DNA of 64,000 nt, from contig NZ_SJPU01000001.1 of NCBI RefSeq assembly GCF_007860105.1, forward strand, positions 1,408,118 through 1,472,117, given 5' to 3'. A model generated the notes under the pieces. The model was not told the DNA's origin. It was given only the letters and a program-made list of their open reading frames with translations, and made no database searches. The position numbers were made by a program, and so were the translations under genes. This document shows, one piece after another, positions 8,640 through 46,021 of this stretch. This DNA is from Allorhodopirellula heiligendammensis (GTDB taxonomy: Bacteria; Planctomycetota; Planctomycetia; Pirellulales; Pirellulaceae). Within the stretch, counting starts at the first letter, position 1, and the number at the start of each line of letters is the position of its first letter.

Positions 8640-10106
8640 CTAGAACGGAGAGTCTTTCCTTTCAATCGGCTGCAAGGATTGATTCAGCCGGTCATACTTG
8701 CGTCGTGACATGTCCTGATACCACGATTCATCGGACTCATCGATATTGCCGGGCGTCCGTGAACTCGATGGGTTCGCATCGGTCTGGTTGGCGCGGGCCA
8801 TCCGGCCGGACCGGGACAGCGATTGAGAGAGGAGGGTAAATTGGTCGAGAATCGCGCTGAGTGAAATACTTGATCGATCGCTCGTCCCGTTCATCAGGTT
8901 TTTGACGAGATCCATCGACAACACACCCGCCGATTGATAGTGAATTTGTGTGACAACGGGCTCCGATGGATACATCCCCATCAGGATCATTTTGTCAAAG
9001 CGAATATCGGCTGAAATCGTTGGTACCGGTGAGTTGACCTCGGAACCTTGCAGATCCAGGCGATTCAAGGTCCGCCGATCGTCGCTGGTAATGAATACTT
9101 CCAATTCGATGTCGGGGACGCCGGCGCGATTGGGTTTGCCGTCTGCGGCATTGGTCTGCCGCTGAGGCAAATGGAAGAGCAGCAGTTCGGTCGCCTGCCG
9201 GTCACTGGAACCTACGCTAGAGACGAGCTGATCACTCTTCTCAAAGGTGAATGCCATTACCAAGGTGCGACCGGTTTCTGATGAGGTGGTGGGTTCGCTC
9301 GTATCCAACTTTTTCGTCGCCGCCGATGACTCGGTCTCTGATGACGTGAAGACGCCCAACGATCGAAACCTCGCGACGGCGGACTCGATCATGGGTTCGG
9401 GCGAGATTGCCGTTCCCGGTCGGTCCAGCTCGAAAAATGCAGCCTGACAGTCGGTGCCAAAATAGTACTGGCCAGATGCATCACAGTAGACGACGGGCTG
9501 GATCGATAGGCGATGGATGCGAAAGTAATTGTCGACCTGGCCTCGAGTCACCATTGGTAGTTTATTGCGGCCTTCCTCCGCCATCTCCAGTCCAACGGTA
9601 ATCGACGGCACGCGCCCGATCGTAGACGCCTGTCCTGGGGCAGGCGCCGTCAAGTTGGGCTGCACGGCGGCCCCTGGCGTCAACATCCGGCACGATGCCG
9701 CTTTGGAAATCGCGTACAGCCGTTGAATTTGTGAATCCAGCAGAGGCAGTGTTTGAATTTGGGTGATCTCATCACGTCCTGGCGTGGCAGCAATCTTGCC
9801 GACCCGCAGCGAAACGTCGACAGGCCGGTTCGTGCTGCGATCGTGTTCGCGTCGATCGGGATCCACCGCATCGGACCCTTCGGCAATTCTGCCTGTTTGC
9901 AGCGATGCCAGTTCCGTCTCTCGGTGATGCGGGGCATCCAACGTGGTTTGATCCTGTTGGCGTTGTTCTTGTTGGAGTGGTTCCTGTTTTATGGTGGTAT
10001 TCGGTGCGGTATCCGTTGGCTGAAGATCGATCTTGCCTGCCAACATCGCAATGAGGACGCCGGTGACGATTACGCATCCGATCTTCAAGTAAAGTTGGTT
10101 CATCAT
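8640..10106 (-). CDS. Membrane-anchored protein of unknown function
   Basis: A 488-residue product starting MMNQLYLK with one N-terminal hydrophobic segment (about residues 7-24), then a Gln/Thr-rich linker of about 80 residues that is probably disordered. The middle holds a cysteine-containing stretch VVYCDASGQYYFGTDCQ. The C-terminal part has several beta-type segments (LVMAFTFEKS, IELEVFITSDD, FDKMILMGMYPSEP). I do not recognise the family. It lies between the lipid-kinase-like gene and the polysaccharide-export gene on the same strand, but the terminator at 10203-10235 separates it from the export gene, so it probably has its own promoter. It is presumably exported to the periplasm-like compartment. 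Confidence 0.6.
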   Translation of the reverse strand: MMNQLYLKIGCVIVTGVLIAMLAGKIDLQPTDTAPNTTIKQEPLQQEQRQQDQTTLDAPHHRETELASLQTGRIAEGSDAVDPDRREHDRSTNRPVDVSLRVGKIAATPGRDEITQIQTLPLLDSQIQRLYAISKAASCRMLTPGAAVQPNLTAPAPGQASTIGRVPSITVGLEMAEEGRNKLPMVTRGQVDNYFRIHRLSIQPVVYCDASGQYYFGTDCQAAFFELDRPGTAISPEPMIESAVARFRSLGVFTSSETESSAATKKLDTSEPTTSSETGRTLVMAFTFEKSDQLVSSVGSSDRQATELLLFHLPQRQTNAADGKPNRAGVPDIELEVFITSDDRRTLNRLDLQGSEVNSPVPTISADIRFDKMILMGMYPSEPVVTQIHYQSAGVLSMDLVKNLMNGTSDRSSISLSAILDQFTLLSQSLSRSGRMARANQTDANPSSSRTPGNIDESDESWYQDMSRRKYDRLNQSLQPIERKDSPF

Positions 10107-10265: not shown

Positions 10266-11591
10266 CTAGTCGGCGATGCTTGAGACCAGAATACCGTCTC
10301 CGCTGAAGTAGTTCAGGAAGGTATTGAAGAACGCGGCACCTGGTTTCTGATGCAACATCACAACGTCGTCAGGCATGATACGAATCCGTTGCTTTTGGTC
10401 CGTGATAGCGCGGTCCAAATCGACCCGAATGTTGATTTGCCGTCCATCGGGAAGCGTTCGCAAGATCATCACCTGTGTGGCTTCACGAACATAGCCGGGC
10501 CGTCCGCCGATGAGGGCCTGACCGCCGATCCCCAGTGGCCCGCCCGGTGAACCAGTTGCCAGTGCGATGGCCTCGAGGACATCGACGTCCTTGTCACGCG
10601 GCAACGGGATTCGTGCTCCGGGCAGCAGACCACCAGTGATGAAGTACTCGTCGCGACGAGGGATGTACACGGTGTCTCCCTCGTGGAGCACCACGTCAGC
10701 GGGTTGAAACGGGATACCGTCGCAGGGACATCCTGCCAGTGGGATCCGAATCACGCCTGCGTTGCACTGGCCCGCTTCGCCGCCACTGACCAGGCCTTGC
10801 AGGGATCCACCGCTGAGGAACTGCGTATTGATTCCCGCACCGTTGCGAATGACGTACAACTCCCGCGCCGCATCGGTGCCGGGCAATCCGCCGGTAGCTC
10901 CGAGTGCGTGCAACACATCGTTTTCATAGATCGGCAAGTCGATGACCTCGCCGCTGCCGCGGTGAACCTGATCGACAACACCTGGCGGCGTGAGCGCGAC
11001 GGCCGGGTTGGGTGTATCTTGTCGTAGCACGACAATTCGCCGGACCCGTGGAATCAACAGGTCGACGGTGACCCGCTCCTTGCCTTCCTGCAGAACGTTT
11101 TCGTCCAAGTACGCTTGTTTGAGCTTGGCGACAGCCTGCGGCATCGTCAGACCAGTGATGTTGACGTCGCCGATGAGCGGCATGTCAATCGTCCCGTTGC
11201 CCTCCACGCGTGCGGGCAAACCTGTCAGAGGACCAACGACCGTACCACGCGGTGGGTAGTAACGTTGGTTGATAGCTTGCGAACGTTGTTGAACCGGCGT
11301 CTCTTCCTCGTTGGCGGGGAACACCCCATACACGTAGATCGACAGCGTATCGCCGGGGCCGATGATGTGCTGCTCAGGCTTCACCTGCCCGAGAGATGAA
11401 AACGGCAGCGGCGCGAGAGCTTCACGCGAGCAACCGAACAGGTTCGGATCGAGCCGGTTGGCCGGGATCGAATTGCGGGCGGACGCGACCGAGTGAATGT
11501 GACAACCGGTACTGGACAGCGTCGTGATCGTGATCAACGCCGTGGCGGCGATCGACGCTGTGATGTTTTGGAGTTGATTCGTGCGAATCAT
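10266..11591 (-). CDS. Polysaccharide export outer-membrane lipoprotein (Wza-like, SLBB)
   Basis: An outer-membrane auxiliary protein that would form the exit channel for capsule or exopolysaccharide. The N-terminus (from ATG 11591) is a lipoprotein signal ending LSSTGC. The poly-export domain begins HIIGPGDTLSIYVYGVF, the classic start of this family. It continues through GDVNITGLTMPQAVAKLKQ, and SLBB-type segments follow (EGDTVYIPRRDEYFITGG and others). Length is about 441 residues, near the family norm. The frame extends six codons further to a TTG at 11609, but ATG 11591 has GAAGGG about eight bases upstream and is preferred. It is 14 kb from the exopolysaccharide cluster, which has no Wza of its own, so this may be its export partner. 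Confidence 0.85.
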   Translation of the reverse strand: MIRTNQLQNITASIAATALITITTLSSTGCHIHSVASARNSIPANRLDPNLFGCSREALAPLPFSSLGQVKPEQHIIGPGDTLSIYVYGVFPANEEETPVQQRSQAINQRYYPPRGTVVGPLTGLPARVEGNGTIDMPLIGDVNITGLTMPQAVAKLKQAYLDENVLQEGKERVTVDLLIPRVRRIVVLRQDTPNPAVALTPPGVVDQVHRGSGEVIDLPIYENDVLHALGATGGLPGTDAARELYVIRNGAGINTQFLSGGSLQGLVSGGEAGQCNAGVIRIPLAGCPCDGIPFQPADVVLHEGDTVYIPRRDEYFITGGLLPGARIPLPRDKDVDVLEAIALATGSPGGPLGIGGQALIGGRPGYVREATQVMILRTLPDGRQINIRVDLDRAITDQKQRIRIMPDDVVMLHQKPGAAFFNTFLNYFSGDGILVSSIAD

Positions 11592-11655
11592 TGCTGAATC
11601 CCTTCGCAATACAGAATTGAATAAATGGGATGTGAGATGAAAGGGGACTCGTGAA

Positions 11656-13212: not shown

Positions 13213-16200
13213 GTGAGTGAGGAATTGACCACCGATAATCGATATTCCGGCCCTGAAACGATGCTATTGACTGGAGCCACCGGGATGGTGGGTTCGTACG
13301 TCATGGCTCAGTGGCTGCGCGATGGTCGGCCACTTGCTGTCATCGCTCGCGGCAAGGGCGCGCACAGTGCAACGGAGCGGATCGAGCAGATTCTCTGCCG
13401 TTTCGAGGCGGCCTGGAGCGTCACACTGCCTCGTCCGCGAGTCTTCCAAGGCGATTTGAATCAGCCCGGCCTGGGATTGCTGTCGGTCAACGCGCAGTGG
13501 ATTGCGGACAACTGCAGTCAGATTCTGCACAGCGCGGCAAGTCTAAGTTTCGCCCCAGCGAGCGAATCGGTCGATAATGAACCCTATCGAACGAACGTGC
13601 ACGGCACCGAGTATGTCTTAGATTTCTGTCGTGCATCGGGTATTTCGCATTTTCACCATATTTCGACAGCCTACGTTTGTGGTAAGCGGAGTGGCGCGGT
13701 TTTGGAATCGGAGGGTGATGTCGGGCAGGATTTCGCCAACGACTACGAGCGCAGCAAGCTGCTGGCCGAAGGATTGCTGGACGCGGCATTGCGGGCTGGG
13801 ACGCTCGAATCACTGACGATTTATCGACCATCGATTGTGATCGACCGCACCGGTCTATCGCCGATCTCCGGGGACCGCACCATTTACGGTGCCTTCTCGA
13901 TGTATCAAATGCTGGCCTCGCGGTTTGGACTGCCCGCTCACGGAGAGTGGTTTCGCAATCTCGGTTTTGACGGTGAGGAGCAAAAAAACATTGTGGACGT
14001 GGATTGGATCGCCAACGCCGTGTTGACGATTATTGCTGATCCGCGGTACCACAATCAAACCTATCATCTGACCTCCTCAGCCGGCACGACCGTTCAGGAT
14101 TTGGACGCCGCATTTCACGCCGCGACTCAGATTTGGCTCGATCGCCCCACGCGATTGGAACGCACCCGCTCGACTCGCTCAGCCAATTTGAGTGTGGACG
14201 ATCGGACGGAACTTGACCGGATGGCCGCGCCATTCGTGAACACGTTTTTGCCTTACTTCCGAGATGACCCGCAATTCGATCGCGAACAAATTGATCGTGT
14301 AATTGCGGAAACCGACCTGCCGTCGACCCCGCACATTGGTAGCGAGGAGCTGTTGGAAATGGTTCGGCATTGGTCGGCGTTCACGCCTCGCCCGATCAAG
14401 AAAAACGCCGCTGAAAGTGGCTCCGCCCAATCGTCTCAAGCTCCCACGGGCCCGCACGGAGTGGCCCGGCAGTCGGCGCCGACGCAATCGGAGCTGCCTG
14501 CTGGGGCGAACGATCCTGATGAGATTGTGATTTGCGGCTACGAAGTTCGCTTGCCCGGTGGTGTGGATAATGTCGACGATTTCGCAGAGATGCTATGGGC
14601 AGGTCGCTCTGGGATCGAGCCGATGCCGGACGATCGGCTGGACCGCTCACTGTATTTCGATACAGAGCGAAATGTGCCCGGCAAAACCTACACGCAGCTC
14701 GGTGGCTGTGTCTCACCGACTCCACTGAGCGTCGAGCGAGAGCGAAAAATCAACGCCCTCGGCGAGTTCGATCTCACTCATCGACAATTTGCCCAGGTCG
14801 CAATGGCGGCGGTCGAGTCGACTTTTGGCGTTGAACGAATCGAAACGGTGGACGGCTTGAACCCGTTGCGGGCCGGCGTGCTGGTCGGACACAGTGGCGG
14901 AACGCAGGCGGGAGGGCCGCTCGCAATGAACACGCTGGCGTCGGCAACATCAGAATTGATCGAGCAGACCGGTTTGCCCGATGCAGTCGACCCCGCGAAT
15001 GTCGATCGGATCAAGGCGAAGCTGACGACCGCGATTCGTGAGGGCCGACCAAGTTGGCAGGACGACGGCGCGCCTCATTTCAATGCCTACAGCGCAGCGT
15101 CTCTGACGGCCGGTCTGATCGGATTTCGAGGTCGCCGTGAAGTCATTGATGCCGCCTGCTCGTCGTCGCTCTTGGCGTTGCACCATGCGGTCTCGGCCAT
15201 CACGGCTGATCATTTAGATGTTGCCTTGGTGGGCGGTGCGACATTCAATAATGTCGACAATCTCGCTTTGTTTTCGCAGTCAGGTGCCTGCAGCGATGAG
15301 GGGTGTTATCCGTTTGATCGTCGCGCCAGTGGTTTGATTAGTAGTGAAGGGTATGTGGCGGTCATCTTGGTGCGGCGCAGCGTGGCCGAGCGACTCGGGC
15401 TCCCCATCCGTGCCAGCGTGGTCGGCGTCGGCGTTGCTTCGGACGGGAAGGGGAAGGGCTTATGGGCGCCACGGAGCGAAGGCCAACAGCTCGCTATCCG
15501 CCGCGTTTCCAATGATGCGGATGTCTGTTTGGACGTGGATTACTTGGAGTGCCACGCGACCAGTACCCAGGTGGGCGACGCCACGGAACTGGAAACCCTG
15601 ACGGCCGTCTTGCGCAACCATGAGGCGGCAGAAGTTGCCAACCCAGTCGATGGACAGCCCACGCAAGCGAACCGCGTGGTGAGTTCCGCGAAGACACAGC
15701 AGCTTCCTATTGGCAGTGTCAAAAGTAATCTCGGGCATCTACTTGAAGCGGCTGGTTTGGTGGGGATGGTCAAATGCATGATCGCGATGCAACGCAGTGA
15801 GCTGCCTCCCTCGATTCATTTCGATCAACCCAACGAGACCTATGACTGGACGGGTTCACCCCTGCGCGTCGTCAAAACAATTGAGCCTTGGCCACAGCGA
15901 CATACATCCCGTCGGCATGCACCCGATGACCGGCTCGCGGGGATCAATGCATTCGGGATTGGGGGGCTAAATGCTCACGTTGTGATCCGCCAATCGGATC
16001 GACCTCGCCAACTGTCCCGTCCCCACGAAACCGCAACACGGAAGCTTGAACCGATTGCAATTGTCGGCCGGGGGCTTGTTTTACCAGGGGCACAGAACGT
16101 TGCTGAGTTCGCCGAATTGCTACGGTCGACGACGAGTTGCATTTCTGATCCGCCGGCGGGGAGGTGGCCTCAGCGGTCTCGCGATCGAGGTTGGATCGGT

Positions 16201-19200
16201 GTCGAACAAGCTGCCTCCGGTGGCGTGGACTGTGATGGGCGTATTCCGCATTGCCGTGGTGGCTACATTCGCGATTTTCAGTTTGATGCCCAAAGCTACC
16301 GGATTCCGCCGAAAACGGTTCAATACGCGAATCCAGCCCAATTAATGTTGATTGACGCGGCGGCTCAAGCAATTGACGAATTTGATGGCGGAACCTGGTC
16401 GATCGACCGGGCCCGCGTCGGAGTCGTCGTCGGGACCATGTTTGGCGGTGAATTCAGCAACTCACTGCAGATAGGTTTGCGGTTGCCTGAGATCCGCCAG
16501 CATTTCCTGCGGATCGCCCGCGACGAAGGTTTATCGAGATCGCAATCCGAGGCCGTGGTTGAGCAGTTCCACACCGCGGTGATGCAGCGCTATCCCGCTC
16601 TGCTCGATGAGACGGGAGGTTTCACCGCCAGCACGTTGGCGTCACGGATTTCACGGACATTTGACCTGATGGGCGGCGCCTGCGCAGTCGATGCTGACGA
16701 GGCCTCCGGGGGCCTGGCCATCATGACCGCGATGGAACAACTCCGGGGGGGCCAGGTCGACGCTGTGTTGTGCGGCATGACGCATCGCTCGATGGATTTG
16801 GTTGCTTTCGAACAACTGTATCGAAAAAACCAATTGGTTCCCTCCGGTCGAGCCGAAGACGTACCTCAGGACGGATCTCGGATCTTCCCAGGCGAAGGGG
16901 TTGCAATCATGATGTTGCAGCGACTTTCCGACGCAGTCGCTCAGGACAAACCCATTTTTGGCGTGATTGAGCACGCTGCGGAGAGTTGGACCGACGACGT
17001 CGCCCGGGCTCGCGCCGACGATGCAAGTCTATCGGAGACTCATCCGGAGACGTCCGCCACTCGATTGTCGTCAACGCTGGGGCATCTCGGCGGGGGACAG
17101 GGAATCGTCCGCACGCTCGCCGCCACGGTTGCATTTGAGCATGCTGCATCCGCTCCTGCGGTTCAACGAATTTGCGAGACGGCACAGGACGGATACCAAA
17201 TTCAATATCAAATAGCCAAACAGCCCACATCCACTCCCATGATTCGAGCGTCTGCCGCAACGACGACACGTTCCCACGAGCAACTCGCCGCGAACGGGCC
17301 AAGCGTGTCGGGGCCAATCGCGAACGGGCCGATCGCGAGTGGGCCAGAGCGGGCCTCGCGCATCGTGAGCACGAGGCCAGTGGCGCCGCGCGTCGCGATC
17401 ACCTCTCCTGTGGAAGTCTTGCAAATCCGTCTGCGAGCGAGCGACCCCGCCCGCCTCCAACGCGATCTGAGGTTGCTGGTAGAGCACCCGGAGTCGCGTC
17501 TTCCTCGCTCAACCCAATTCGAGTCGGGCGTCGATTCCTTCCAGGCTCAACACACGACTGCGCCCTCGGCTGCCGCGGCTAAAGTCACCGAGGTGGCGAT
17601 CGTGGGCCACAGCGTTCAGGAAGTGGCTGCCGCCGCGAGAGCGATCCTCGATGGACCACTTGCCGAGCGCCAGACGACTGCACTGTCCAAACATGTGGCT
17701 TGGATTCGCTGCCAAGAATCATCGGGAAACCGCGTCGGTTGGCTATTTCCTGGACAAGGCTCACAGTACCCTGCCATCCCGCGTTTATTTTCATCCGACG
17801 ACTCCGGTGCACCGACGGCGGCCTCGGCTTGGTCGTTCATGCAAGACGTCGATGCACGCCTGCAACGCCGGGGGATTGAGTCGGTGGGCGATCGCTTGAC
17901 CGACCCGAAACGCCAACTCGGACGCGATGTGTGGTGGACGCAGTTGTGGGTGTTGGCCGTCGGTGCTGCGATGACGGATGCACTGTTTCAGCGCGGCCAT
18001 CGCCCGGATGTCGTGCTCGGTCACAGTTTCGGTGAGTGCACGGCAGCGTGGGCTGCCGGCGTGATGAACATGGACCAGGCGATCGAGTTCGCCAAGTGCC
18101 GTAGCGATGCCGTGATCATGACCCGCCAAGTTGGTGGGCAACTGCTGTCGGTGCGGGGGGAGCCCTCTGCCGTGCAAGCGGTGATTGATCGCCATCAACT
18201 CGATGTCGTGATCTCGCATCACAATTCTCCCGTGGGCACCGTGATCGCCGGCATGAAGAACGACATTGCTGCTGCCAAATCACAGCTCGCTGACGCCGGG
18301 ATGGCGTCGGTTGTGATCAATGTTCCTGCCGCGTTCCATACGCCCGCAATGAAGCCGGCGCAGGAGTTACTGCGAGCCCGCTTTGGGGGACAGCATCTGC
18401 TACCTCCACGGTTGGGCTTTCTCTCTGCGGTTTCGAATCGGTACCTCGCCGAACCAACCGAAATCATGGACAACCTAATCAACCAACTTACTCAGCCGGT
18501 CTGTTTCAACGGTGCCCTGCAGCGGATCGTGGCCGAGGGTTGCGGTCTTTTGATTGAGGTTGGCCCCGACAATGTGTTGACGCGACTGGCTCGTGCGTCG
18601 GTCGATGGTCGGGCGATCTGTTTGAGTGCCGACGAACGTCGTCGAGAACATACCCTCCAACAATTACTCATCGAGATGGCCTGCGAGGCGTTTCAGGGAA
18701 CCGGCTCCCTCGGTGCGCAACACCATCCCGCGACTGAAAAACCGATTGAGGGGCGGCGTCATGGTGATCCTCATCGCCATGGTTCGCCGAGTGTGACTGA
18801 TGAGCAAATGACGGCGGCTGCAGAACAGCGTTTCGAAGTCGTGGACGTGACCCGCAATCGCCGCCGACAGGCACCACCGAAACCGTCGACTTCCATGCGG
18901 GCCAGTTCCAATGAGCCCAATTCAGTTGGATCCAGTGCACCGCTTTCGCCTGAGCCGATAACGCTTGCCACGAGGGACCGAGGCAACCTGCCGACGTCTC
19001 AAGCAGCTGGTGGGGCGTCCCGGCACGGCGCTCCTACGTCGCCGTCCTCGGTCGAAACGCCCTTGGTCGTCAATGCTGCGGTCGGCCAACGAGCGGCTCG
19101 AGCATTCCTGTTTGACCTCGCTGTCGATCTGACGGGGTACGATCCGGAGATCATTGACTTCTCCGCCGACTTAGAAGCTGAACTCGGAGTCGACAGCATT

Positions 19201-22200
19201 AAAAAGGCACAGTTGATCGGTGAGATCGTGCAGTGGTCTGATACCCCAATTGATGTTCAGTCGATGCAGCTGGCTCAGTTCGAAACGCTCAATGACATCC
19301 TCGGGATTCTGGACGATGCTTCCGCCACCGCTTCGCTTTGTGAGCCGACATCGCCTGCCATGGTGACCACGCAACGACAGTCGACGGCATCGACCGCGGA
19401 CGCACCACGCACCGCTGGTGAGATCCCAGGAGCGGTCCCAGCACTCGCTCCGACGCACACCGACGCGGCCTGGGATGTCAGTGAAGACTTGGGCGGTAAC
19501 GATGAGTCGCTCCGACGCTTGATGATCGATTTGGTGGTCGATCAAACCGGCTACGACGAATCGATCATCGATCTGGACGCTGACATGGAAGGCGAACTGG
19601 GTATCGACAGCATCAAGAAGGCGCAGTTACTCGGCGAGCTGGCACAGCAATACCAACTCACGTCGCTACAGGATTCCGGTTTAACGTTGGCTGATTTTGC
19701 GACCCTCGAATCCATCCGTGCATTCGTGTGGGAGCAGATTGCATCGCCTGGTGGGAACGTGATGGGGGACTCCGCCGCTACGTTGGCCCGAGAAAAAAAA
19801 AACGAAGTTGAAACTCAGCACGCGGGTGTGAGCACCGGGGGGGGCGCGCCTTCGGCGAATCAATCGGACCCCACGCCACCCGTTCCTGCAACGGGCACAC
19901 ATCGGTTCGTACTGGGGATGCAATCAACCCCACGGCTGGCGAATATGCCCGCGGCGCCAACGTGGCATGGTCCAGCCTTGGTGTATGGCGACAACGCGAT
20001 GTCCGACGCAATCGTGGCGCGCTGGCGTGCAGATTCACAGGCTGCTCAATTTCCCATTGAGTTAATTGACTCCTCACTCACCATTGACGAATTGAATTCG
20101 CGGCTGGACGAACTGTGGGCCAATGGCATCTCGCCCCACCTCTTCATCACGACTCCGCACGACCGCGACGCAGTATGGCAAACGACGGACGCGGCGGCCT
20201 GGCGATCTCGACGCGAATCGGCCCTGAGTAATCCGTTTCGGCTGTGCCAACGCTGGATGCAAGGTCTCATTGACGCTAACTGCATGTCGAAGGCCACGCT
20301 CACATCTCTTGTGAACTCCGGAGGGGATTTCCATTTCGGTGGCGGCGAACTTATGTCCTCCGAGTCGGGCGGATTGTCTGGTTTAACGAAAGCAATGTTG
20401 ATCGAGGCTTGGATGCGTGGGTATCAGGACACGCCGATGCTGATCGTCGATGCCTTGCCCGACGCCAGCCCCGCCGATGTCGCTGAAGGCATTTGGCGTG
20501 AACTGGCCGTTCCCTCGTACGACGAGGAAGTCGCCGTCTCCGCTGAGCGTCGGTTTGCCACCGCCGCCCGCTACAGCCCGCTCTCAACTCCCTCTCGCGC
20601 TGCCTCATTGTCTCCCGCTCACTCCTTGACCTCTGGTGGCAACTGGATCGTTGCCGGTGGCGGTCGCGGCATCACAGCGATGACTGCGATGGAGTTAGCC
20701 TCCCGCCATCAGTTAAAATTGCATTTGTTGGGTACCGCGCCGGTACCGCAGATCGATGACGAAACACGGCGTCGGGCCGCTGCTGATCGGCCGGCATTGC
20801 GGCGTCAAGTCATGAACCAGACCCAAGCACAGGGGGGCAACCCTGTAACGACGTGGCAGCAATTGGAAAAAGCAATCGAGATTGATCAAACCTTACAAGC
20901 TTGCCTGGAACGATCGATTGACGCTGTCTATCACAGCGTGGACGTTGGCGATGTCGAGGCGGTCAATAAGCTCCTGAAGAAAATTCGCCGCGCCGACGGT
21001 CCGATTCGAGGTGTCATCCAAGGTGCCGGGGCTGGACAGGACGCTCGCTTTGACCGCAAACGTCCTGACAAGGTCGAAAAATGTTTCCGCGCGAAGATCG
21101 ATGGTTGCGTCGCCTTGGCGAATGCCACCCAGCATGATCCGCTTGAGTGGTTCGTGGGCTTCGGCAGCATCAGCGGTCGTTTTGGTGCCAACGGGCACAC
21201 GGATTACTCCGCTGCCAACGATATGCTCGCCAAGCTGATTGGCAACCTCCAGCAGCAACGCCCTAAAACTCGCTGCGTGACATTCCACTGGCATGCCTGG
21301 GGCGATATCGGCATGGCGACGAAGCCCGAAGCGAAACTGGCTCTCGACATGATCGGCATGGACTTCATGCCTGCCCAGGAAGGCCTACAGCATTTCATCA
21401 ACGAAATCGAGTGGGGCGGCGACGCGACTGAAGTCCTCATCACTGACCGGCGGTATGTACGGAAGTTTTTCCCGCGGGGCGAAAGTGTCATCGGCTTCCA
21501 ACCTGTGGATGCGAATCAAACGGTGATGGCGTCGGAACCAGCTGGGATGCCTCTGCCCTTACCCATGCTCGACCCGGAATCGAACCAGGCGGCGGACGAT
21601 CGATCGCGGCAATCTTCGTACGCGGTTCTGTTCGATCCCGTCCATGACCGATTTCTAAGTGAACATTTGGTACAAGGTCGACCGACACTGCCGTTCGTGA
21701 TAGCGATTGAACTGCTCGCCGAGGCAGCTCGCGCAGGAACGGGCGAGGATGTGATTGCAATGCATGACATCCAGGCCCATCGTCCCCTGAAATGTCTCAC
21801 GAGGGAACCTTTCAGAGTGGAGCTCGTATCGTCGATCCACCACCAAGATGCACCGGTGGGGCGATCCGCGTCGCAGCCGCGTTGGTCCTTGGTCAGCGAC
21901 CTGCGACGTCGCGACGGTCGTCTCGTCGAAGCCGCGCGGCCTCATTTCAGTGCCACCATTCTCACGCGACAGCGCCGCCCGTCGGAAGAACCCTCATCGG
22001 ACAGCTTGCGCCGCACCGCTCCGGCTCAAGATGATCTGGCTGTGACGTTGGAACCTGTCGATTACCAACCGAGTGATGCCCCGGTCTATCACGGTCCCGC
22101 GCTCCAATGCCTCCGCCAAATAGGGTTCACGTCGGACTCGCAGACCGCTGTGGGAGTGATTGTTGCTCCCAGCCCCGCACACCTGGCGGGTGAGCATCGG

Positions 22201-22476
22201 CCGATGCAAGGTTGGACGATCTCACCCGCATCCACGGACGCATTGCTCTACGCCGCGGGGATGTTGGCCTACCGTGTGAGTGGTAGACCAAGTCTACCGG
22301 TCTCGTTTGAGAGAATTGAAATCGGCCGTTTGCCAGTGCCCGGCGAACCGCTGCGAGCGGTTGTGACCTGCGAGCATGAAGACGAGACAGGGGCCATCTT
22401 GCGAGCGAGTCTCGATGGATTCAACGGCGACAGGATACTGGAACTCATCGGTTACAAAATCGGGTGGATAGGATAG
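13213..22476 (+). CDS. Giant PUFA-like polyketide/fatty-acid synthase (SDR-KS-CLF-AT-ACP-ACP-KR-DH)
   Basis: A 3087-residue iterative type I synthase. Domains in order: thioester-reductase-like SDR (about 15-385; TGATGMVG near 18, Tyr178/Lys182); ketosynthase (436-930; Cys649, His781, His842); a second KS-like domain (946-1335) with Glu1163 in place of the catalytic cysteine, so probably a chain-length factor; acyltransferase (about 1500-1830; Ser1605 in GHSFGE, His1709); two acyl carrier domains (Ser1995 in LGVDSIKK, Ser2133 in LGIDSIKK); ketoreductase (2475-2760; Tyr2665 in YSAAN); double-hotdog dehydratase (about 2810-3087; His2818, Asp3009). The ACP motif and KS-CLF pairing match the Pfa/secondary-lipid synthase group. 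There is no enoyl reductase or thioesterase domain. Low-complexity linkers separate the parts. The start is GTG. The product is unknown. Confidence 0.9.
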   Translation: MSEELTTDNRYSGPETMLLTGATGMVGSYVMAQWLRDGRPLAVIARGKGAHSATERIEQILCRFEAAWSVTLPRPRVFQGDLNQPGLGLLSVNAQWIADNCSQILHSAASLSFAPASESVDNEPYRTNVHGTEYVLDFCRASGISHFHHISTAYVCGKRSGAVLESEGDVGQDFANDYERSKLLAEGLLDAALRAGTLESLTIYRPSIVIDRTGLSPISGDRTIYGAFSMYQMLASRFGLPAHGEWFRNLGFDGEEQKNIVDVDWIANAVLTIIADPRYHNQTYHLTSSAGTTVQDLDAAFHAATQIWLDRPTRLERTRSTRSANLSVDDRTELDRMAAPFVNTFLPYFRDDPQFDREQIDRVIAETDLPSTPHIGSEELLEMVRHWSAFTPRPIKKNAAESGSAQSSQAPTGPHGVARQSAPTQSELPAGANDPDEIVICGYEVRLPGGVDNVDDFAEMLWAGRSGIEPMPDDRLDRSLYFDTERNVPGKTYTQLGGCVSPTPLSVERERKINALGEFDLTHRQFAQVAMAAVESTFGVERIETVDGLNPLRAGVLVGHSGGTQAGGPLAMNTLASATSELIEQTGLPDAVDPANVDRIKAKLTTAIREGRPSWQDDGAPHFNAYSAASLTAGLIGFRGRREVIDAACSSSLLALHHAVSAITADHLDVALVGGATFNNVDNLALFSQSGACSDEGCYPFDRRASGLISSEGYVAVILVRRSVAERLGLPIRASVVGVGVASDGKGKGLWAPRSEGQQLAIRRVSNDADVCLDVDYLECHATSTQVGDATELETLTAVLRNHEAAEVANPVDGQPTQANRVVSSAKTQQLPIGSVKSNLGHLLEAAGLVGMVKCMIAMQRSELPPSIHFDQPNETYDWTGSPLRVVKTIEPWPQRHTSRRHAPDDRLAGINAFGIGGLNAHVVIRQSDRPRQLSRPHETATRKLEPIAIVGRGLVLPGAQNVAEFAELLRSTTSCISDPPAGRWPQRSRDRGWIGVEQAASGGVDCDGRIPHCRGGYIRDFQFDAQSYRIPPKTVQYANPAQLMLIDAAAQAIDEFDGGTWSIDRARVGVVVGTMFGGEFSNSLQIGLRLPEIRQHFLRIARDEGLSRSQSEAVVEQFHTAVMQRYPALLDETGGFTASTLASRISRTFDLMGGACAVDADEASGGLAIMTAMEQLRGGQVDAVLCGMTHRSMDLVAFEQLYRKNQLVPSGRAEDVPQDGSRIFPGEGVAIMMLQRLSDAVAQDKPIFGVIEHAAESWTDDVARARADDASLSETHPETSATRLSSTLGHLGGGQGIVRTLAATVAFEHAASAPAVQRICETAQDGYQIQYQIAKQPTSTPMIRASAATTTRSHEQLAANGPSVSGPIANGPIASGPERASRIVSTRPVAPRVAITSPVEVLQIRLRASDPARLQRDLRLLVEHPESRLPRSTQFESGVDSFQAQHTTAPSAAAAKVTEVAIVGHSVQEVAAAARAILDGPLAERQTTALSKHVAWIRCQESSGNRVGWLFPGQGSQYPAIPRLFSSDDSGAPTAASAWSFMQDVDARLQRRGIESVGDRLTDPKRQLGRDVWWTQLWVLAVGAAMTDALFQRGHRPDVVLGHSFGECTAAWAAGVMNMDQAIEFAKCRSDAVIMTRQVGGQLLSVRGEPSAVQAVIDRHQLDVVISHHNSPVGTVIAGMKNDIAAAKSQLADAGMASVVINVPAAFHTPAMKPAQELLRARFGGQHLLPPRLGFLSAVSNRYLAEPTEIMDNLINQLTQPVCFNGALQRIVAEGCGLLIEVGPDNVLTRLARASVDGRAICLSADERRREHTLQQLLIEMACEAFQGTGSLGAQHHPATEKPIEGRRHGDPHRHGSPSVTDEQMTAAAEQRFEVVDVTRNRRRQAPPKPSTSMRASSNEPNSVGSSAPLSPEPITLATRDRGNLPTSQAAGGASRHGAPTSPSSVETPLVVNAAVGQRAARAFLFDLAVDLTGYDPEIIDFSADLEAELGVDSIKKAQLIGEIVQWSDTPIDVQSMQLAQFETLNDILGILDDASATASLCEPTSPAMVTTQRQSTASTADAPRTAGEIPGAVPALAPTHTDAAWDVSEDLGGNDESLRRLMIDLVVDQTGYDESIIDLDADMEGELGIDSIKKAQLLGELAQQYQLTSLQDSGLTLADFATLESIRAFVWEQIASPGGNVMGDSAATLAREKKNEVETQHAGVSTGGGAPSANQSDPTPPVPATGTHRFVLGMQSTPRLANMPAAPTWHGPALVYGDNAMSDAIVARWRADSQAAQFPIELIDSSLTIDELNSRLDELWANGISPHLFITTPHDRDAVWQTTDAAAWRSRRESALSNPFRLCQRWMQGLIDANCMSKATLTSLVNSGGDFHFGGGELMSSESGGLSGLTKAMLIEAWMRGYQDTPMLIVDALPDASPADVAEGIWRELAVPSYDEEVAVSAERRFATAARYSPLSTPSRAASLSPAHSLTSGGNWIVAGGGRGITAMTAMELASRHQLKLHLLGTAPVPQIDDETRRRAAADRPALRRQVMNQTQAQGGNPVTTWQQLEKAIEIDQTLQACLERSIDAVYHSVDVGDVEAVNKLLKKIRRADGPIRGVIQGAGAGQDARFDRKRPDKVEKCFRAKIDGCVALANATQHDPLEWFVGFGSISGRFGANGHTDYSAANDMLAKLIGNLQQQRPKTRCVTFHWHAWGDIGMATKPEAKLALDMIGMDFMPAQEGLQHFINEIEWGGDATEVLITDRRYVRKFFPRGESVIGFQPVDANQTVMASEPAGMPLPLPMLDPESNQAADDRSRQSSYAVLFDPVHDRFLSEHLVQGRPTLPFVIAIELLAEAARAGTGEDVIAMHDIQAHRPLKCLTREPFRVELVSSIHHQDAPVGRSASQPRWSLVSDLRRRDGRLVEAARPHFSATILTRQRRPSEEPSSDSLRRTAPAQDDLAVTLEPVDYQPSDAPVYHGPALQCLRQIGFTSDSQTAVGVIVAPSPAHLAGEHRPMQGWTISPASTDALLYAAGMLAYRVSGRPSLPVSFERIEIGRLPVPGEPLRAVVTCEHEDETGAILRASLDGFNGDRILELIGYKIGWIG

Positions 22477-22480
22477 CACT

Positions 22481-23257
22481 ATGAATCAAGATTTGATGGG
22501 TAAACGGGCTCTCGTTACCGGAGCGAGCCGCGGGATTGGACGCGAGATCGCGCTGGAGTTGGCGGCCCGCGGCGCCAGTGTCGCAGTGAACTTTCTCAAC
22601 TCGCAAGAACAGGCAGTCGATGTCGCACGCCAGATCGCTAACACACTCAGGCCCGACGCCGATGTGATGTTGGTGAAGGCTGATGTCTCTCAGCGTGGAG
22701 ATATTCAGTCGATGGTAGACGAAGTTCAGTCGCGATTCGGTGGACTCGACATCATTGTTAGCAACGCCGCCGCGGGTGGGTTCCGAGCCCTGTCCGATTT
22801 GACGCCGGTCAATTTTGAGGCTGTTCTGCGAACCAATGCCTCACCCGTCATCTGGTTGACCCAGGCGGCCTCCACGTTGCTTGGGAGCGGCTCGGATAAT
22901 GGGAAAGTTGTCGCAGTGAGCAGTCATGGGTCACGCTGGTCCGTTCCGCATTATGGCGCTATCGGAGCGTCCAAGGCTGCACTGGAAAGTTTGATTCGCC
23001 ACCTCGCCCTGGAACTGGGTGACCGCGGAATCAACTTCAATTGTGTCCTCCCTGGAATCATCGCTACCGATGCCATCGCAAGCATGCCGGACGCCGATAA
23101 TTTGGTAAAAGCCGCCAGTGAGCGGATGATGCTTGGCGAGCGAACCCTGACCCAGCATGACGTCGCTAAGGTCGTTGCGTTTTTATGCAGCCCGGACAGT
23201 GACTTGATTCAAGCACAAACGATTGTCGTCGATGGCGGTGTCAGTATTCGTGTATGA
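22481..23257 (+). CDS. FabL-like enoyl-ACP reductase (SDR)
   Basis: A 258-residue classical-size SDR with the NAD(P) motif TGASRGIG near residue 14 and the ending QTIVVDGG. The catalytic pair is Tyr158 and Lys165, spaced Y-x6-K. This spacing is typical of enoyl reductases, not the Y-x3-K of ketoreductases. The segments NAAAGGFRAL and ASKAALESLIRHLALEL recall Bacillus FabL (enoyl-ACP reductase III). The gene starts four bases after the synthase stop, so it is translationally coupled, and it supplies the enoyl reduction that the megasynthase lacks. A 3-ketoacyl reductase role cannot be fully excluded by sequence reading alone. Confidence 0.8.
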   Translation: MNQDLMGKRALVTGASRGIGREIALELAARGASVAVNFLNSQEQAVDVARQIANTLRPDADVMLVKADVSQRGDIQSMVDEVQSRFGGLDIIVSNAAAGGFRALSDLTPVNFEAVLRTNASPVIWLTQAASTLLGSGSDNGKVVAVSSHGSRWSVPHYGAIGASKAALESLIRHLALELGDRGINFNCVLPGIIATDAIASMPDADNLVKAASERMMLGERTLTQHDVAKVVAFLCSPDSDLIQAQTIVVDGGVSIRV

Positions 23258-23358: not shown

Positions 23359-24804
23359 ATGCGAAAACCAATAGGTCGATCGCAACTCAACCCAATTTTC
23401 AAACGTCAGACCACACGATTGCCTTCCATGGCCCCCGCTCCCCCCCGCGACTTGCTCCCCACCACCGTGATGGAACGCTATTTTTCACGTCCCAGTCACG
23501 GTAACGGGATGGTTTTTAGCATCACGCTGGTGCTTGAGGGAGCAATGGAGATTGAGCCGCTGCGGCGGGCTTGGTTTGACACCGTACATCGGCATCCTCG
23601 CATGTATGCAAAGCTCGTTGGACGCGGTCGACGCCAACAGTGGAAGTTACAAACACAAGCGGACCACGCGTCGTTCGTGTACCGCGATGTGGCCGCCGAT
23701 ACCTCCGCCGCTACTGACGACGCTGAATCGGTGCGACCGCGAAGAGGCGTGGGCATGAAATGCGTGATTCAGACATCGGATCAACACCGCTGGTCGATTC
23801 GCTTACTTTTTCATCACGCTTGCTGTGATGGCGTGGGCGCGATCCGGATGATCGGCCAATTTGCGAAAGCGTACACCCAGGTCAGAGGGACCGGGCTATC
23901 GCATCCGGCTGTCAACCCGAGCCCGTCGCAGCGGGCCGACCGAACGCCTTTGTCCGTGAAGCAAACTACGGCGGTGACGTCGCCACAGTTGCCTGACATG
24001 AACAACCTGTGGGCGACGATTCGTGGCAAAAATGTGCGGTTATCCCAACAGGATATTGTTGGTGACACCGTTTGCTGTGACGTCCCTGGTACCACCATCG
24101 CTACGTTCCAAGGCTCATCCCGGCTCATGTTCTCACGTTCGCAGAGTGATCTCGTTCGTCAACAACTTCGGCAAAAAAAAATCACACTCAATGATTGGGC
24201 GGTCGCCGTCACGCTCCATACTTTTGCGAACGTCACCAACGCGACCGAGTCCCCCCGGAATCACGTGATGATCATGAATCCCGTTGAAACGCGGACGTGG
24301 GCTCAGCGGCATGACACGGACAATCACGTCGGCATCGCCTTTGTGCGTCGCACACATGGCCAACTACTTGAGGTTCAACACACGCTGGATTCAGTGAGCG
24401 AGCAAATGCAGAGTGTTCGCCGGTGTGGTACGGGTAATGAGCTAGCGGGGGGGATCGCGTTTGCGGAGCGAGTTGCTGGATGCGTTGGCCTGTTTGAGCG
24501 TTTGGGCACCTTCACGCCGACGGCGTCCCTGACCAGCGTCGCGGGCTTAAGGCTGGGGAAACGATTTGGCGTTCATCGCCAGGATGAGGGCATCTGGATC
24601 TCTGACGCCCAGCTGATCGACGTCTTTTTTGAGGCACCTATCCAAAACGGGGGGCAAGTGTCCACCACAATCTGGGAATTCGAGGGTCAAGTTGCGGTCT
24701 CGCATCGGGTCAGCCCGGGCCTCTTTGATGGCGACCAGAACCGTCATTTACTTAATCTGTGGGCGAAGATCGCATTGGACGCAATCCGGGAGTCTACCGT
24801 GTGA
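23359..24804 (+). CDS. HHxxxDG acyltransferase (condensation-domain/PapA/WS-DGAT-like)
   Basis: Up to 481 residues. It carries the motif HHACCDG at residues 152-158, the catalytic HHxxxDG of the chloramphenicol-acetyltransferase-like superfamily (NRPS condensation domains, PapA acyltransferases, wax-ester synthases). The second histidine would be the general base. The N-terminal region (MERYFSR, FSITLVLEG, RRAWFDTVHRHPRM) fits the start of such a domain. Two starts are possible, ATG 23359 and ATG 23428; the latter begins closer to the conserved part. It follows the reductase gene by 101-170 bases on the same strand. It could esterify the acyl chain or alcohol made by the megasynthase. Acceptor and donor are inferred, not shown. 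Confidence 0.75.
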   Translation: MRKPIGRSQLNPIFKRQTTRLPSMAPAPPRDLLPTTVMERYFSRPSHGNGMVFSITLVLEGAMEIEPLRRAWFDTVHRHPRMYAKLVGRGRRQQWKLQTQADHASFVYRDVAADTSAATDDAESVRPRRGVGMKCVIQTSDQHRWSIRLLFHHACCDGVGAIRMIGQFAKAYTQVRGTGLSHPAVNPSPSQRADRTPLSVKQTTAVTSPQLPDMNNLWATIRGKNVRLSQQDIVGDTVCCDVPGTTIATFQGSSRLMFSRSQSDLVRQQLRQKKITLNDWAVAVTLHTFANVTNATESPRNHVMIMNPVETRTWAQRHDTDNHVGIAFVRRTHGQLLEVQHTLDSVSEQMQSVRRCGTGNELAGGIAFAERVAGCVGLFERLGTFTPTASLTSVAGLRLGKRFGVHRQDEGIWISDAQLIDVFFEAPIQNGGQVSTTIWEFEGQVAVSHRVSPGLFDGDQNRHLLNLWAKIALDAIRESTV

Positions 24805-25479: not shown

Positions 25480-27948
25480 ATGATTATGGCGGAACCCAAC
25501 GAACCTAAAAATCGCATTCAGTCCCTGACGCGACCGAAGCCAGACGATGATCAAGCAGATTCGTTGGATGTACTGCAGCTTCTTCATCGCCAGCGCTGGA
25601 TCATTATCTTTTTATGCATTTGCGGGCTCACCGCGGGTGTGGCGTACGCAAAGTACGCCACGGTGTGGTATCAATCCAGTGCGACTGTATTGATCAATCA
25701 GAAGAGTGCGGGCTTGGATAAAGACGGCACCGGCCAAGAGATGGTCGAGGAAGACATCCTCGCCAATCACATTCAACTGATCAAGAGTCGGATGATCATT
25801 GGCGAGGCGCTCCAGCAGAATGATTTGGCCACACTGCCTTCCATTGTCGAGCGTCTTAACCCTGAGCGAACGGGCTTTGATGCCACCGATTATGTGGTCG
25901 AGCATCTTTCTATCTCCAAGGGCGGAGAAGGATCTGCCAAAGCCGCCCGTAGTCTCCGGGTGACGCTGACACACACCGACGCCGATGATGCCCAGCTGAT
26001 CTTGACGGCGGTGATGAAACGCTATGAACAATTTATCATTGCACAGGTCGAACAGTTGATGGGCCGTGCCAATGAGATGGTTAATGAAGCCAAACAGGAT
26101 ATCGAAGCGGACCTGATCGCCGCCGAACAGGAGCACTTGAAGTCGCGGCAGGACGCCCCCCTGTTTTTTCAAGGTGAGGGTAGTAGCAACGTTTACCAAG
26201 ACCGTTACCGCCGCATCCAAGAAGAATTGCTCGATCTCGATATCAAAGAATCAACAGTGCGGACTCGGCTGCAACGCGTCGATGCCACACTGAAGGAAAT
26301 GGATGGATCGGATGACCCGGCGGATCATCTCGACAAATTAGCCTTGATTGATAGCGAGAGTCTCGAGCGCCTTGGCGTGTTTGCCGGATTGCAGATGAAC
26401 GCGTCTAACACCGCTGAGTTCAAGGCTTCCATGCCTGCGAAGGCGGAGGAAGCTCATACTCAGATCACCCACCTGCTCGAGCTCAACAGTGAGCGACAGC
26501 GGTTGGCGGCACTCTTTGGTGCAGGACACCCCAAGGTGCAGGAAATCGAAAACCAAATCGCGCTCGTCAAGCAGTTCCTGCAAGAGAAGCGAGAGTTGAC
26601 GACTCCTTCGCTCTCGTTCAACGAAAGCTCGCTGAGCCCAGAAGGGTTGCTGAAAGCCTATGTGGGTTTTCTCAATCACGATCTCGCCACACTGACGGAG
26701 CGGCGGAAGGAACTAACTTACCTTTCTGCCGATGCTGAGCGTAAAGCCAAGGAGCTGATCGAGTTCGAACTGACCGACATGGTGTTGCAGAAAAAGATTA
26801 CACGCCAAGAGGCATTGTTCGATAGTATCGTCCAGCAGCTTCGCGATCTCGATACCGCCAGTGGCCTCAGCGGATATCTATATGAGTTTCTAGAGGTGCC
26901 ACGTCGCGGTGAGAAATCGTGGCCGAAAATGTCGCTCTGCGGCCTTGGTGGACTGATGTTGGGGATGTTCTCAGGATTGTTCTTGGCGGTTGCCAATGAT
27001 CTGCGTGACGGGCGGTTCCGCTCGGCTGCTGAACTGGATGAAGCCATCGGTTTGACTAGCCTGGGCCGTGTCGGCAAACTCAACTCGATGAAGAAGGGCG
27101 TCGCGGGTTTGATCGCGACCGGCGAGTCGCCTGATGCCGAAGCGTTCCGGCTTGGCCGAACGATGCTGTTGCCGGAAATACGCAGCGGTGCTCTGCGGAC
27201 GATAGGTTTCACCAGTCCGATGCAAGGCGACGGCAAATCTACCGTCGTCTCCAACTTCGCCCTTTCGTTCTCCCAGATTGGCTTGAAGGTGCTCGTCATT
27301 GATGCGGACCTGCGCCGCCCCAGTGCGCACCGCTTCTTTAACCTTAATAAAGAACGTGGCTTGTGTGATCTGCTGGATGGACGCATCAGTTTCGAAGAGG
27401 CAGTCAAAGAGACCAAGGCCGATAATGTTTATGTGATGCCCGCCGGTTCGTCGAGCACGTCGCCGGCAGAGTTTCTGCAGTCCGAAGAACTCGACGAGGT
27501 ACTCGCCACTGCACGATCTCACTTCGATTTCGTGTTGGTTGACCTACCTCCCGTATTAGCCGTTTCAGATCCCGTTGTGGTGCTGCCCCGTCTCGACGGT
27601 GCCATTCTTGTCATTCGCGTCTCGAAGGTCCGTCGTGACGAAGTCGTCAACACGCTCCGCCGTGTTGAAACAGCAGGCGGCAATTTTGTTGGCTGCATGC
27701 TCAACACCTATGGAGCGAGCAAGGCGTTCGACGCAGATGGTGGCTACTACGGCTACTATCGCAGCGACTACACGCGTCCAAAGTCGAAATCGGCCGCTGC
27801 GGCTGCGGAGCGGTCCAATCGCGTCGCTACAGCTCAGGTCAACGGCAAGGCACATACTAACGGCCATGCCAATGGAACGTCGCAAACCAATGGAACTTCG
27901 CAAACCAGTGGTAAAGCCAAAACCAATGGGAAAGTCAAGTCAAAATGA
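25480..27948 (+). CDS. Polysaccharide co-polymerase / bacterial tyrosine kinase (Wzc-like)
   Basis: An 822-residue inner-membrane protein that would control chain length and couple polymerisation to export. It has a Wzz-type N-terminus with transmembrane segment 1 (about 41-65), a long periplasmic coiled-coil region, and transmembrane segment 2 (about 485-508). The cytoplasmic BY-kinase domain has Walker A in MQGDGKST (near 583), Walker A' LVIDADLRRP (near 605) and Walker B VLVDLPPV (near 683). A tyrosine cluster YYGYYRSDY near 750 is the expected autophosphorylation site. The last ~50 residues are an unusual Asn/Gly/Thr/Lys-rich tail with NGTSQT repeats. A second ATG at 25486 is an alternative start. 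It is the first gene of the exopolysaccharide locus. Confidence 0.9.
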   Translation: MIMAEPNEPKNRIQSLTRPKPDDDQADSLDVLQLLHRQRWIIIFLCICGLTAGVAYAKYATVWYQSSATVLINQKSAGLDKDGTGQEMVEEDILANHIQLIKSRMIIGEALQQNDLATLPSIVERLNPERTGFDATDYVVEHLSISKGGEGSAKAARSLRVTLTHTDADDAQLILTAVMKRYEQFIIAQVEQLMGRANEMVNEAKQDIEADLIAAEQEHLKSRQDAPLFFQGEGSSNVYQDRYRRIQEELLDLDIKESTVRTRLQRVDATLKEMDGSDDPADHLDKLALIDSESLERLGVFAGLQMNASNTAEFKASMPAKAEEAHTQITHLLELNSERQRLAALFGAGHPKVQEIENQIALVKQFLQEKRELTTPSLSFNESSLSPEGLLKAYVGFLNHDLATLTERRKELTYLSADAERKAKELIEFELTDMVLQKKITRQEALFDSIVQQLRDLDTASGLSGYLYEFLEVPRRGEKSWPKMSLCGLGGLMLGMFSGLFLAVANDLRDGRFRSAAELDEAIGLTSLGRVGKLNSMKKGVAGLIATGESPDAEAFRLGRTMLLPEIRSGALRTIGFTSPMQGDGKSTVVSNFALSFSQIGLKVLVIDADLRRPSAHRFFNLNKERGLCDLLDGRISFEEAVKETKADNVYVMPAGSSSTSPAEFLQSEELDEVLATARSHFDFVLVDLPPVLAVSDPVVVLPRLDGAILVIRVSKVRRDEVVNTLRRVETAGGNFVGCMLNTYGASKAFDADGGYYGYYRSDYTRPKSKSAAAAAERSNRVATAQVNGKAHTNGHANGTSQTNGTSQTSGKAKTNGKVKSK

Positions 27949-32688: not shown

Positions 32689-32727
32689 AGCCTCGGCAGC
32701 ACGCTTAACATCTAGAGAGAACGGTTA

Positions 32728-35115: not shown

Positions 35116-35154
35116 TATTTTTGGTACGCTGGCCTTGATTAGACGAGAAGCACC

Positions 35155-37526: not shown

Positions 37527-37543
37527 GAACCATATTAAAACGT

Positions 37544-37550
37544 GGAGGAG
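37544..37550 (+). promoter_or_regulatory. Ribosome binding site deciding the fnlB start
   Basis: GGAGGAG seven bases before GTG 37558. It supports starting FnlB at RRILITGAGG and not at the upstream in-frame codon 37495, which lies inside the preceding gene. Confidence 0.7.
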
Positions 37551-37557
37551 AAGTCTG

Positions 37558-38685: not shown

Positions 38686-38870
38686 TATCTGGTAGAGACC
38701 TAAGCGTTCTAATTGCGACGGATTCTGCCTGCGTTTCTCGCCCTCTGAAGTGCTGGTGTGCAATGCACAGTGTGATTCGCGAGTCGTGGGAGACGATGCA
38801 ATCCGGCACCGCTCTCCCTGAGTCTTAAGCACTCGCCGCCAAACAATACTCTTTTAAATGAGACTTTTTC

Positions 38871-41886: not shown

Positions 41887-41920
41887 AATCCTAGGACCAT
41901 TGCTATTGCTGCAACATGGA

Positions 41921-45950: not shown

Positions 45951-46021
45951 TCGTCCACCTCAGGCAGAGTGCTCGCTGGCGTTCATTTGTCGAACGCTCG
46001 CACCATCGCCAGGCCACGGTT

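Follow-up and report, generated by a model that had tools for sequence, protein, structure and literature searches.

The locus studied here raises the question of what a planctomycete makes with a single very long polypeptide that carries most of the domains of a lipid synthase, and how the finished chain leaves it. The window, by which we mean the whole analysed stretch of 64,000 nucleotides of Allorhodopirellula heiligendammensis DNA (contig NZ_SJPU01000001.1), contains on its forward strand an open reading frame (ORF) with a GTG start (13213-22476) and 3087 codons without a stop, so that the 3087-residue protein claimed in an initial annotation, made from the letters alone, is indeed encoded without interruption. 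We propose that this protein is a type I secondary lipid synthase that works iteratively and releases its chain by reduction, and that the largely saturated chain would then become part of an ester lipid, a reading that we consider somewhat probable.

The single-chain synthase (3087 aa) has the layout TER-KS-CLF-AT-ACP-ACP-KR-DH, all domains being given here by residue and by forward-strand position. Domain borders come from hidden Markov models (HMMs) built from ten aligned proteins, the window protein among them, and the order they give agrees with that of Pfam. The N-terminal thioester-reductase-like domain (TER, residues 16-390; 13258-14382) matches the NAD_binding_4 family PF07993 above its cut-off at residues 19-270 (3.4e-40), and the thioester reductase model TIGR01746 at residues 1-400 with 104.2 bits (8.7e-30), short of the cut-off of 213.35 bits. 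The ketosynthase (KS, residues 436-939; 14518-16029) and the chain-length factor (CLF, residues 943-1345; 16039-17247) follow, and ketoacyl-synt is accordingly matched twice by Pfam, the KS with its C-terminal domains covering residues 437-939. Behind them lie the acyltransferase (AT, residues 1506-1820; 17728-18672; Acyl_transf_1 at 1510-1806, 4.1e-28), two acyl carrier proteins (ACP 1, residues 1960-2037, 19090-19323; ACP 2, residues 2098-2175, 19504-19737) that correspond to two stretches matched by PP-binding, the ketoreductase (KR, residues 2240-2755; 19930-21477; PF08659 at 2477-2697, 2.2e-29) and a double-hotdog dehydratase of the polyketide synthase (PKS) type (DH, residues 2795-3085; 21595-22467; PKS_DH_N, PF21089, at 2798-2873, 4.6e-7). 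The arrangement is not due to chance, because Pfam E-values reach 7.6e-67 and orthologues with about 42-70% identity to the window synthase keep the entire layout. Among the 15 Pfam families on the chain PKS_DH_N is the sole dehydratase and none is of FabA type, the search for the latter being confined to this protein, and Pfam places no enoyl reductase (ER) domain in the chain. A promoter scan upstream of the gene returned none.

Every domain named in the initial annotation is thus present, including the adjacent KS and CLF and the KR and DH at its C-terminal end, and a domain search for CLF and DH, which had been suggested as a check, finds both. The N-terminal TER and the malonyl-type AT had been overlooked and, with the TER, the probable release step, which is the best clue to the product.

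Conservation of catalytic residues was read from ten aligned proteins including that of the window, nine of which hold the TER part. The KS residues Cys649, His781 and His842, already pointed out in the annotation, are invariant in all ten, and the KS active-site motif reads DAACS. Likewise invariant are the two ACP serines that it had placed in LGVDSIKK and LGIDSIKK (Ser1995 in LGVDS and Ser2133 in LGIDS), and the same ten proteins share Gln1515, Ser1605, Arg1630 and His1709 in the AT, Lys2628, Ser2652, Tyr2665 and Asn2669 in the KR, and His2818 and Asp3009 in the DH. In the TER, the glycine motif GATGMVG, Ser151/Thr152, Tyr178 and Lys182 are conserved in 9/9. At the position of the active-site Cys the CLF has Glu (Glu1163 in the window) or Asp among the ten, and Cys occurs in none of 52 aligned CLF domains, some genomes being entered there under two locus identifiers; the same change from Cys to Glu was read as support for a CLF in the zeamine synthase (PMC3547906). 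A malonyl acyltransferase (MAT) is marked by Gln and Arg, which are altered in PfaB (PMC12895367). Since Gln1515 and Arg1630 are kept, we read the AT as malonyl type and the chain as having no AT of PfaB type, an equivalence that is taken from the motifs rather than from an alignment with PfaA.

In order to follow the history of the long protein, we searched a family set of 149 genomes, our own included, and a phylum set of 294 genomes drawn across Planctomycetota. The KS-CLF-AT piece is matched at E <= 1e-100 in 30 of the 149 family genomes, and 11 of these 30 have the fused form, which is present as two overlapping ORFs in G128 and cut by a contig end in G139. A TER-KS query at E <= 1e-60 matched 13/294 phylum genomes, the match spanning both domains only in our own. 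A scan of genome contigs gave 33 loci, including those of Rhodopirellula solitaria, Aporhodopirellula aestuarii, Rubripirellula obstinata, Stieleria tagensis, Neorhodopirellula pilleata, R. europaea 6C and Roseiconus nitratireducens. With both sets merged, TER and KS lie within one ORF in at least 14 planctomycete genomes, to which L084, whose contig begins inside the KS, may be added; as far as seen, the fused form is confined to one planctomycete group, the acidobacterial L097 excepted. More distant relatives have the TER as a gene of its own near the synthase, and fusion of the TER in so many genomes together with this adjacency therefore ties it to the synthase. In R. europaea 6C (L086:9938-18738) and Roseiconus (L087:9971-18924) the synthase is split into two ORFs between the ACPs and the KR, unlike in the close relative L042, which has it whole.

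The first KS tree was made from 70 KS domains of selected loci (genome copies and L042 left out; KS matches below 90 bits or 280 residues dropped), and the TER tree omits L039, L040, L041, L042, L046, L048 and L049, all but L042 being genome copies, as well as TERs below 230 residues or 150 bits, L085 among them. The fused KSs form one clade (100/99) within a clade of 43 KSs (100/100) that is planctomycete throughout, except for one acidobacterial metagenome-assembled genome (MAG). Their nearest relatives include L090, L091, L092 and L099, which encode a KS-CLF-AT-ACP2-KR-DH protein with a TER gene immediately upstream. In the TER tree the fused TERs again form one clade (96/91), sister to the four separate TERs of these same loci, with a joint support of 100/100. 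Most likely, neighbouring genes thus fused into the long protein, a single time within the planctomycete fused group, as suggested by the fused TERs being sister to separate TER genes that stand beside similar synthases. The acidobacterial MAG L097 has a TER-fused synthase (L097:8510-16723) that neither tree places in the planctomycete fused clade, which may reflect a second fusion or a transfer. L090 comes from a MAG named Candidatus Kuenenia, with gene sizes the same as in the Planctomycetales MAG L091 and a near-identical KS; the MAG may carry a wrong name, or the contig may have been misbinned.

The genes downstream offer candidates for the reactions that the chain itself does not cover. 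Four bases past the synthase stop codon begins a short-chain dehydrogenase/reductase (SDR; 22481-23257, forward strand), whose best NCBIfam model is that of FabL, PRK08063 (235.7 bits, against a cut-off of 328 and a runner-up of 175.1 bits), and whose best relative in the PDB is Bacillus subtilis FabL (3oic, 1.3e-44, with Tyr and Lys aligned; runner-up 5.3e-34). The spacing Tyr-x6-Lys marks enoyl reductases (FabL/FabI), whereas Tyr-x3-Lys marks ketoreductases; the former is present here and in the SDR of every relative whose motif was printed, six rows having printed none. The SDR is therefore probably a trans-acting enoyl reductase of FabL type. Next follows a protein of 481 aa with the motif HHACCDG (23359-24804, forward strand), which matches Pfam Condensation weakly (3.1e-5, below cut-off) and the wax ester synthase/diacylglycerol acyltransferase model TIGR02946 with 34 bits (cut-off 309.95). 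HHxxxDG is present in 24/25 of its blast matches, several genomes appearing twice. Its predicted structure (pLDDT 81) is a confident two-lobed condensation fold, with matches to CmnI (9uay, 2.7e-18, TM about 0.6), to condensation domains of nonribosomal peptide synthetases (NRPSs) and to the O-acetyltransferase TRI3, so that by motif and predicted fold this protein belongs to the condensation-superfamily acyltransferases. In R. solitaria the acyltransferase (L078:20515-22506) is longer, 663 aa against 481, with matching stretches at 9-169 and 386-654 and about 215 residues between them that have no match to the window protein.

Fused-locus counts refer to 15 loci, the window and 14 others. The SDR is found at all 15, adjoining the synthase or after a Rieske gene, and the acyltransferase at 13, the contig of L086 ending too soon. 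At 14 more distant loci, several on short contigs, the SDR is present 13 times, a Rieske oxygenase 11 times and the acyltransferase 10 times.

From the domains, conserved catalytic residues, gene order and gene-fusion history, which can be read from the sequence directly, we infer the saturation and length of the chain, the activity of the TER and its role in release, and the formation of an ester. In the mechanism that we propose, the AT of the chain would load malonyl units onto the two ACPs, and the KS-CLF pair would condense them and set the chain length. The KR and DH would act within the chain, and the neighbouring SDR would reduce the enoyl group; because KR and DH in cis are joined by a FabL-type SDR in trans, most cycles may end in full reduction, giving a largely saturated long chain. 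The N-terminal TER would then release the chain from the ACP in the form of an aldehyde instead of a fatty acid, possibly carrying it on to the alcohol, and the condensation-fold acyltransferase would join the chain hydroxyl to an acyl group, or the acyl chain to an acceptor, yielding an ester lipid. The Pfa-like synthase of the zeamine pathway likewise has a TER, an SDR and a free-standing condensation domain at its side, and reductive termination has been proposed for it (PMC3547906).

The lack of an ER domain in the chain also allows a polyene or partly reduced specialised metabolite, such as a pigment or an antibiotic, made without enoyl reduction, released by the TER and esterified. The SDR could in that case be a ketoreductase, relatives carry Rieske oxygenase and radical-SAM genes, and sponge symbionts have swf synthases of one module that are likewise accompanied by a TER and a radical SAM protein (PMC3908369). 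As the closest solved relative of the SDR is FabL, with Tyr and Lys aligned, and the genome of the window gave neither of the two tailoring genes, we think such a product improbable.

These tailoring genes are of interest in themselves. A B12-type radical-SAM gene (DUF4070) stands divergent to the synthase at 11/15 fused loci; L084 is cut, and the genome of L085 carries the gene on another contig. Identity to the L042 counterpart is 76-97% for the radical SAM protein (L042:2076-3962) and 42-89% for the synthase beside it, the former being the more conserved in 10/10 loci. It is matched at E <= 1e-60 in 22 of the 149 family genomes; at 58% identity or more it occurs in 9/11 fused genomes against 2/138 others, the remainder lying at 35-43%, and the two non-fused genomes with a close match (G098 and G108) carry related synthases, on a different contig from the radical-SAM gene in G108. 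The association with the fused form (Fisher p 4e-11) was calculated from hand-entered counts on genomes that are not independent. A Rieske oxygenase is encoded at 9/15 fused loci. Neither the window's genome nor G045 has a radical SAM match at E <= 1e-60, the L078 locus is also without the gene, and a search of the window's genome for the Rieske oxygenase, run without a positive control, found none; the window therefore represents the simplest form of the system. The strong co-occurrence gives a direct handle on a putative lipid modification.

Returning to reductive release of a largely saturated chain, several points weigh against it. We know of no product for any member of the family. The TER, the SDR and the acyltransferase fall below the NCBIfam cut-offs (TIGR01746, PRK08063 and TIGR02946), and the acyltransferase below that of Pfam Condensation too, although the TER and SDR do exceed the cut-offs of general Pfam models; the SDR might instead act as a second ketoreductase. 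In L042 the search beside the operon gave no acyltransferase, and esterification may therefore not be universal. Taken alone, the KS, CLF and AT score 153.1, 62.4 and 101.5 bits with the PfaA model, below the 227.8, 75.1 and 155.2 bits that they reach with the PKS model NF045894, and among solved structures the whole chain is closest to PKSs. Finally, releasing reductase domains are typically C-terminal (PMC3547906), and by that analogy an N-terminal one would be unusual.

The annotation had presented the protein as the components of PfaA and PfaC merged into one chain. The single chain stands, and the merger of a PfaA gene with a PfaC gene was considered and rejected, as the KS belongs to the separate 100/100 clade and the protein misses the cut-off of the PfaA model TIGR02813, with 503.2 bits about half of the 1010.1 required. 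PfaA follows the order KS-MAT-ACPn-KR without a CLF, and here a CLF stands between KS and AT. The ACP-KR-DH part does prefer PfaA (204.3 bits against 90.0 for the next NCBIfam family), and this best fit, the DAACS motif of the KS and the tandem ACPs could speak for a polyunsaturated fatty acid (PUFA) synthase proper, supplying phospholipids. Against it stand the half-way PfaA score, the single malonyl-type AT, the reductase domain in the chain, the lack of a FabA-type dehydratase among the families listed and the lack of PfaD (TIGR02814), for which there was no match in our genome (97.6% complete), a control matching in 3/14 genomes and exceeding the cut-off in one. On account of the dehydratase, PfaD and the PfaA score a PUFA product appears unlikely, and we give a PUFA synthase proper a very small probability. 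The annotated "iterative secondary-lipid synthase" that makes a long acyl chain is in keeping with both domains and family. Pfa-type synthases are themselves frequent in Planctomycetota beside the fused-synthase family, PfaA exceeding its curated cut-off in 35/294 phylum genomes.

The position of the wider clade is less sharply defined. The PfaA and PfaC groups of the trees were defined by the architecture of loci that TIGR02813 had picked up, with the plasmid locus L125 added, and not all exceed the PfaA cut-off; the plasmid loci L123-L125 served as tree rows, the matches in the plasmid collection being mostly annotated as type I PKS. The 43-KS clade joins PfaC with 86/75 support in the first KS tree and 57/79 in the second, from which five further rows were left out (two long-branch PfaA, one PfaC and two S_large). 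Topology tests do not reject its joining with PfaA (p 0.14) or with three PKS KSs (p 0.43), and its place thus remains compatible with PfaC, PfaA or PKS. For the fused KS group alone, which the initial annotation had wished to see compared with ordinary modular PKSs, a grouping with the three PKS KSs is rejected (p-AU 7e-5), and with it a modular-PKS branch.

The synthase operon is flanked by Wza- and Wzz-like genes that belong to a polymer cluster, which raises the question of where its product ends up. Upstream lie, on the reverse strand, a Wza-like polysaccharide export protein (10266-11609, PF02563) and a conserved partner of 488 aa with a predicted N-terminal helix (8640-10106), which has homologues near the synthase at 14/15 fused loci, window included, and was not seen at L086; it has no Pfam or NCBIfam match, and a fold search with its model (mean pLDDT 68.8) gave no match, the best PDB E being 0.44. 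Downstream, on the forward strand, is a chain-length regulator resembling Wzz and BY-kinases (25480-27948, PF02706, TIGR01007), which in the 7.2 Mb genome is the only one of two Wzz matches above cut-off. The rest of the exopolysaccharide cluster extends over 28342-47416, with sugar dehydratases, a Wzx-like flippase, glycosyltransferases, a UDP-GlcNAc 2-epimerase, an initiating transferase, a DegT aminotransferase and a Wzy-like protein (46022-47416, reverse strand).

This setting is a lead, and not proof, for an envelope or polymer-linked lipid. The synthase may make the lipid part of a surface glycolipid or an exopolysaccharide anchor, resembling heterocyst glycolipids or capsule lipids, which the acyltransferase and the 488-aa partner would attach or export, and which we regard as a minority possibility worth keeping in mind. 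It is suggested by the position of the operon and by that sole Wzz match above cut-off, by the Wza and Wzz genes that flank 4/14 other fused loci (L078, L079, L082 and L083), by a Wzz gene within 2.5 kb of the TER gene in the two distant relatives L095 and L108, by a sugar transferase near the L086 locus, and by wcbR/rkpA, a gene for a type I synthase that other bacteria have in their capsule clusters, likened by description (PMC3908369). Weighing the other way, 10/15 fused loci have no Wza or Wzz match in the stretches read, which span 12-29 kb and are in some cases ended by the contig, and L078, L079 and L082 are close to the window and hence not independent. A broader scheme, to which we give a still lower probability, would have one polypeptide perform almost all steps between malonyl-CoA and a long-chain aldehyde or alcohol set free by its N-terminal reductase, for an envelope lipid joined to exopolysaccharide, as a planctomycete counterpart of the heterocyst glycolipids that Rieske and B12 radical SAM enzymes would rework in relatives.

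Two other large systems are encoded in the same genome. A second, larger related system (L052; C1 about 1012580-1029257, outside the window) has a separate TER (549 aa), a KS-CLF protein (923 aa), an ACP protein (407 aa), a phosphopantetheinyl transferase (PPTase), an SDR and a protein of 3186 aa with the layout KS-CLF-AT-KR-DH and a penicillin-acyltransferase-like (AAT) domain. Another large PKS-like protein (L053; C1:2661407-2665165; 3233 aa as ORF) has a long-branched KS that falls with the PKS KSs of Nostoc.

These data define a planctomycete family of lipid synthases for which we found no known product, and whose simplest member consists of one gene, an SDR and an acyltransferase, so that the whole system could be expressed. 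Should release indeed be reductive, the system would lead compactly from malonyl-CoA to long-chain alcohols or esters, and it would open access to the envelope lipids of planctomycetes, of which little is known.

Secondary lipid synthases in the broad sense have at least KS, ACP and KR with combinations of MAT, CLF and DH (PMC3098273), a domain set that the window synthase contains. In that work Shulse and Allen define 20 types, and the term "thioester reductase" is absent from its main text and from the listed domain set (PMC3098273). A recent description of Pirellulaceae reports one antiSMASH hglE-KS cluster in 1/5 strains (PMC13190842), and the literature searched, which mostly excluded subscription papers, gave no description of a planctomycete TER/CLF synthase.

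Compared with the Pfa synthases (PfaA and PfaC; Types A and B), the window synthase shares KS, CLF, malonyl AT, tandem ACPs, KR and DH, with an ACP-KR-DH part like that of PfaA, but has them on one chain, with the KS directly followed by CLF and AT and an N-terminal TER added; its DH is of PKS rather than FabA type, the likely enoyl reductase is the SDR in place of PfaD, no PfaB-type AT is seen in the chain, and the KS has its own clade. The zeamine (zmn) system, likened by description, also has a Pfa-like KS, a CLF with the Cys-to-Glu change, an SDR, a TER and a free-standing condensation domain, but differs in having PfaD with an aminotransferase, NRPS/PKS partners and a separate TER gene (PMC3547906). 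The heterocyst glycolipid (hgl, Type F) system is again likened by description and not by sequence: HglC is KS-CLF-AT (PMC3098273), and the hgl island holds a TER (PMC11804610) and yields an envelope lipid, but it is spread over several genes, whereas the window has one chain. Among the nearest in the KS tree are the unfused planctomycete relatives L090, L091, L092 and L099, with their KS-CLF-AT-ACP2-KR-DH synthase, SDR and acyltransferase, in which the TER is a separate gene and a Rieske oxygenase is present. The combination of KS, CLF, ACP and KR on one chain, which the initial annotation had set against the Pfa arrangement, is not unprecedented, since Type R (Shulse and Allen 2011) has KS-MAT-CLF-ACP3-6-KR on one polypeptide (PMC3098273). 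In the window the CLF precedes the AT, DH and TER are part of the chain, and the next genes encode an SDR and an acyltransferase, with no PPTase among them, whereas a PPTase lies downstream in Type R. Judged by its architecture, the window synthase is thus a new variant of the secondary lipid synthases, in which the single-chain arrangement of KS, CLF, ACP and KR is one already known from Type R.

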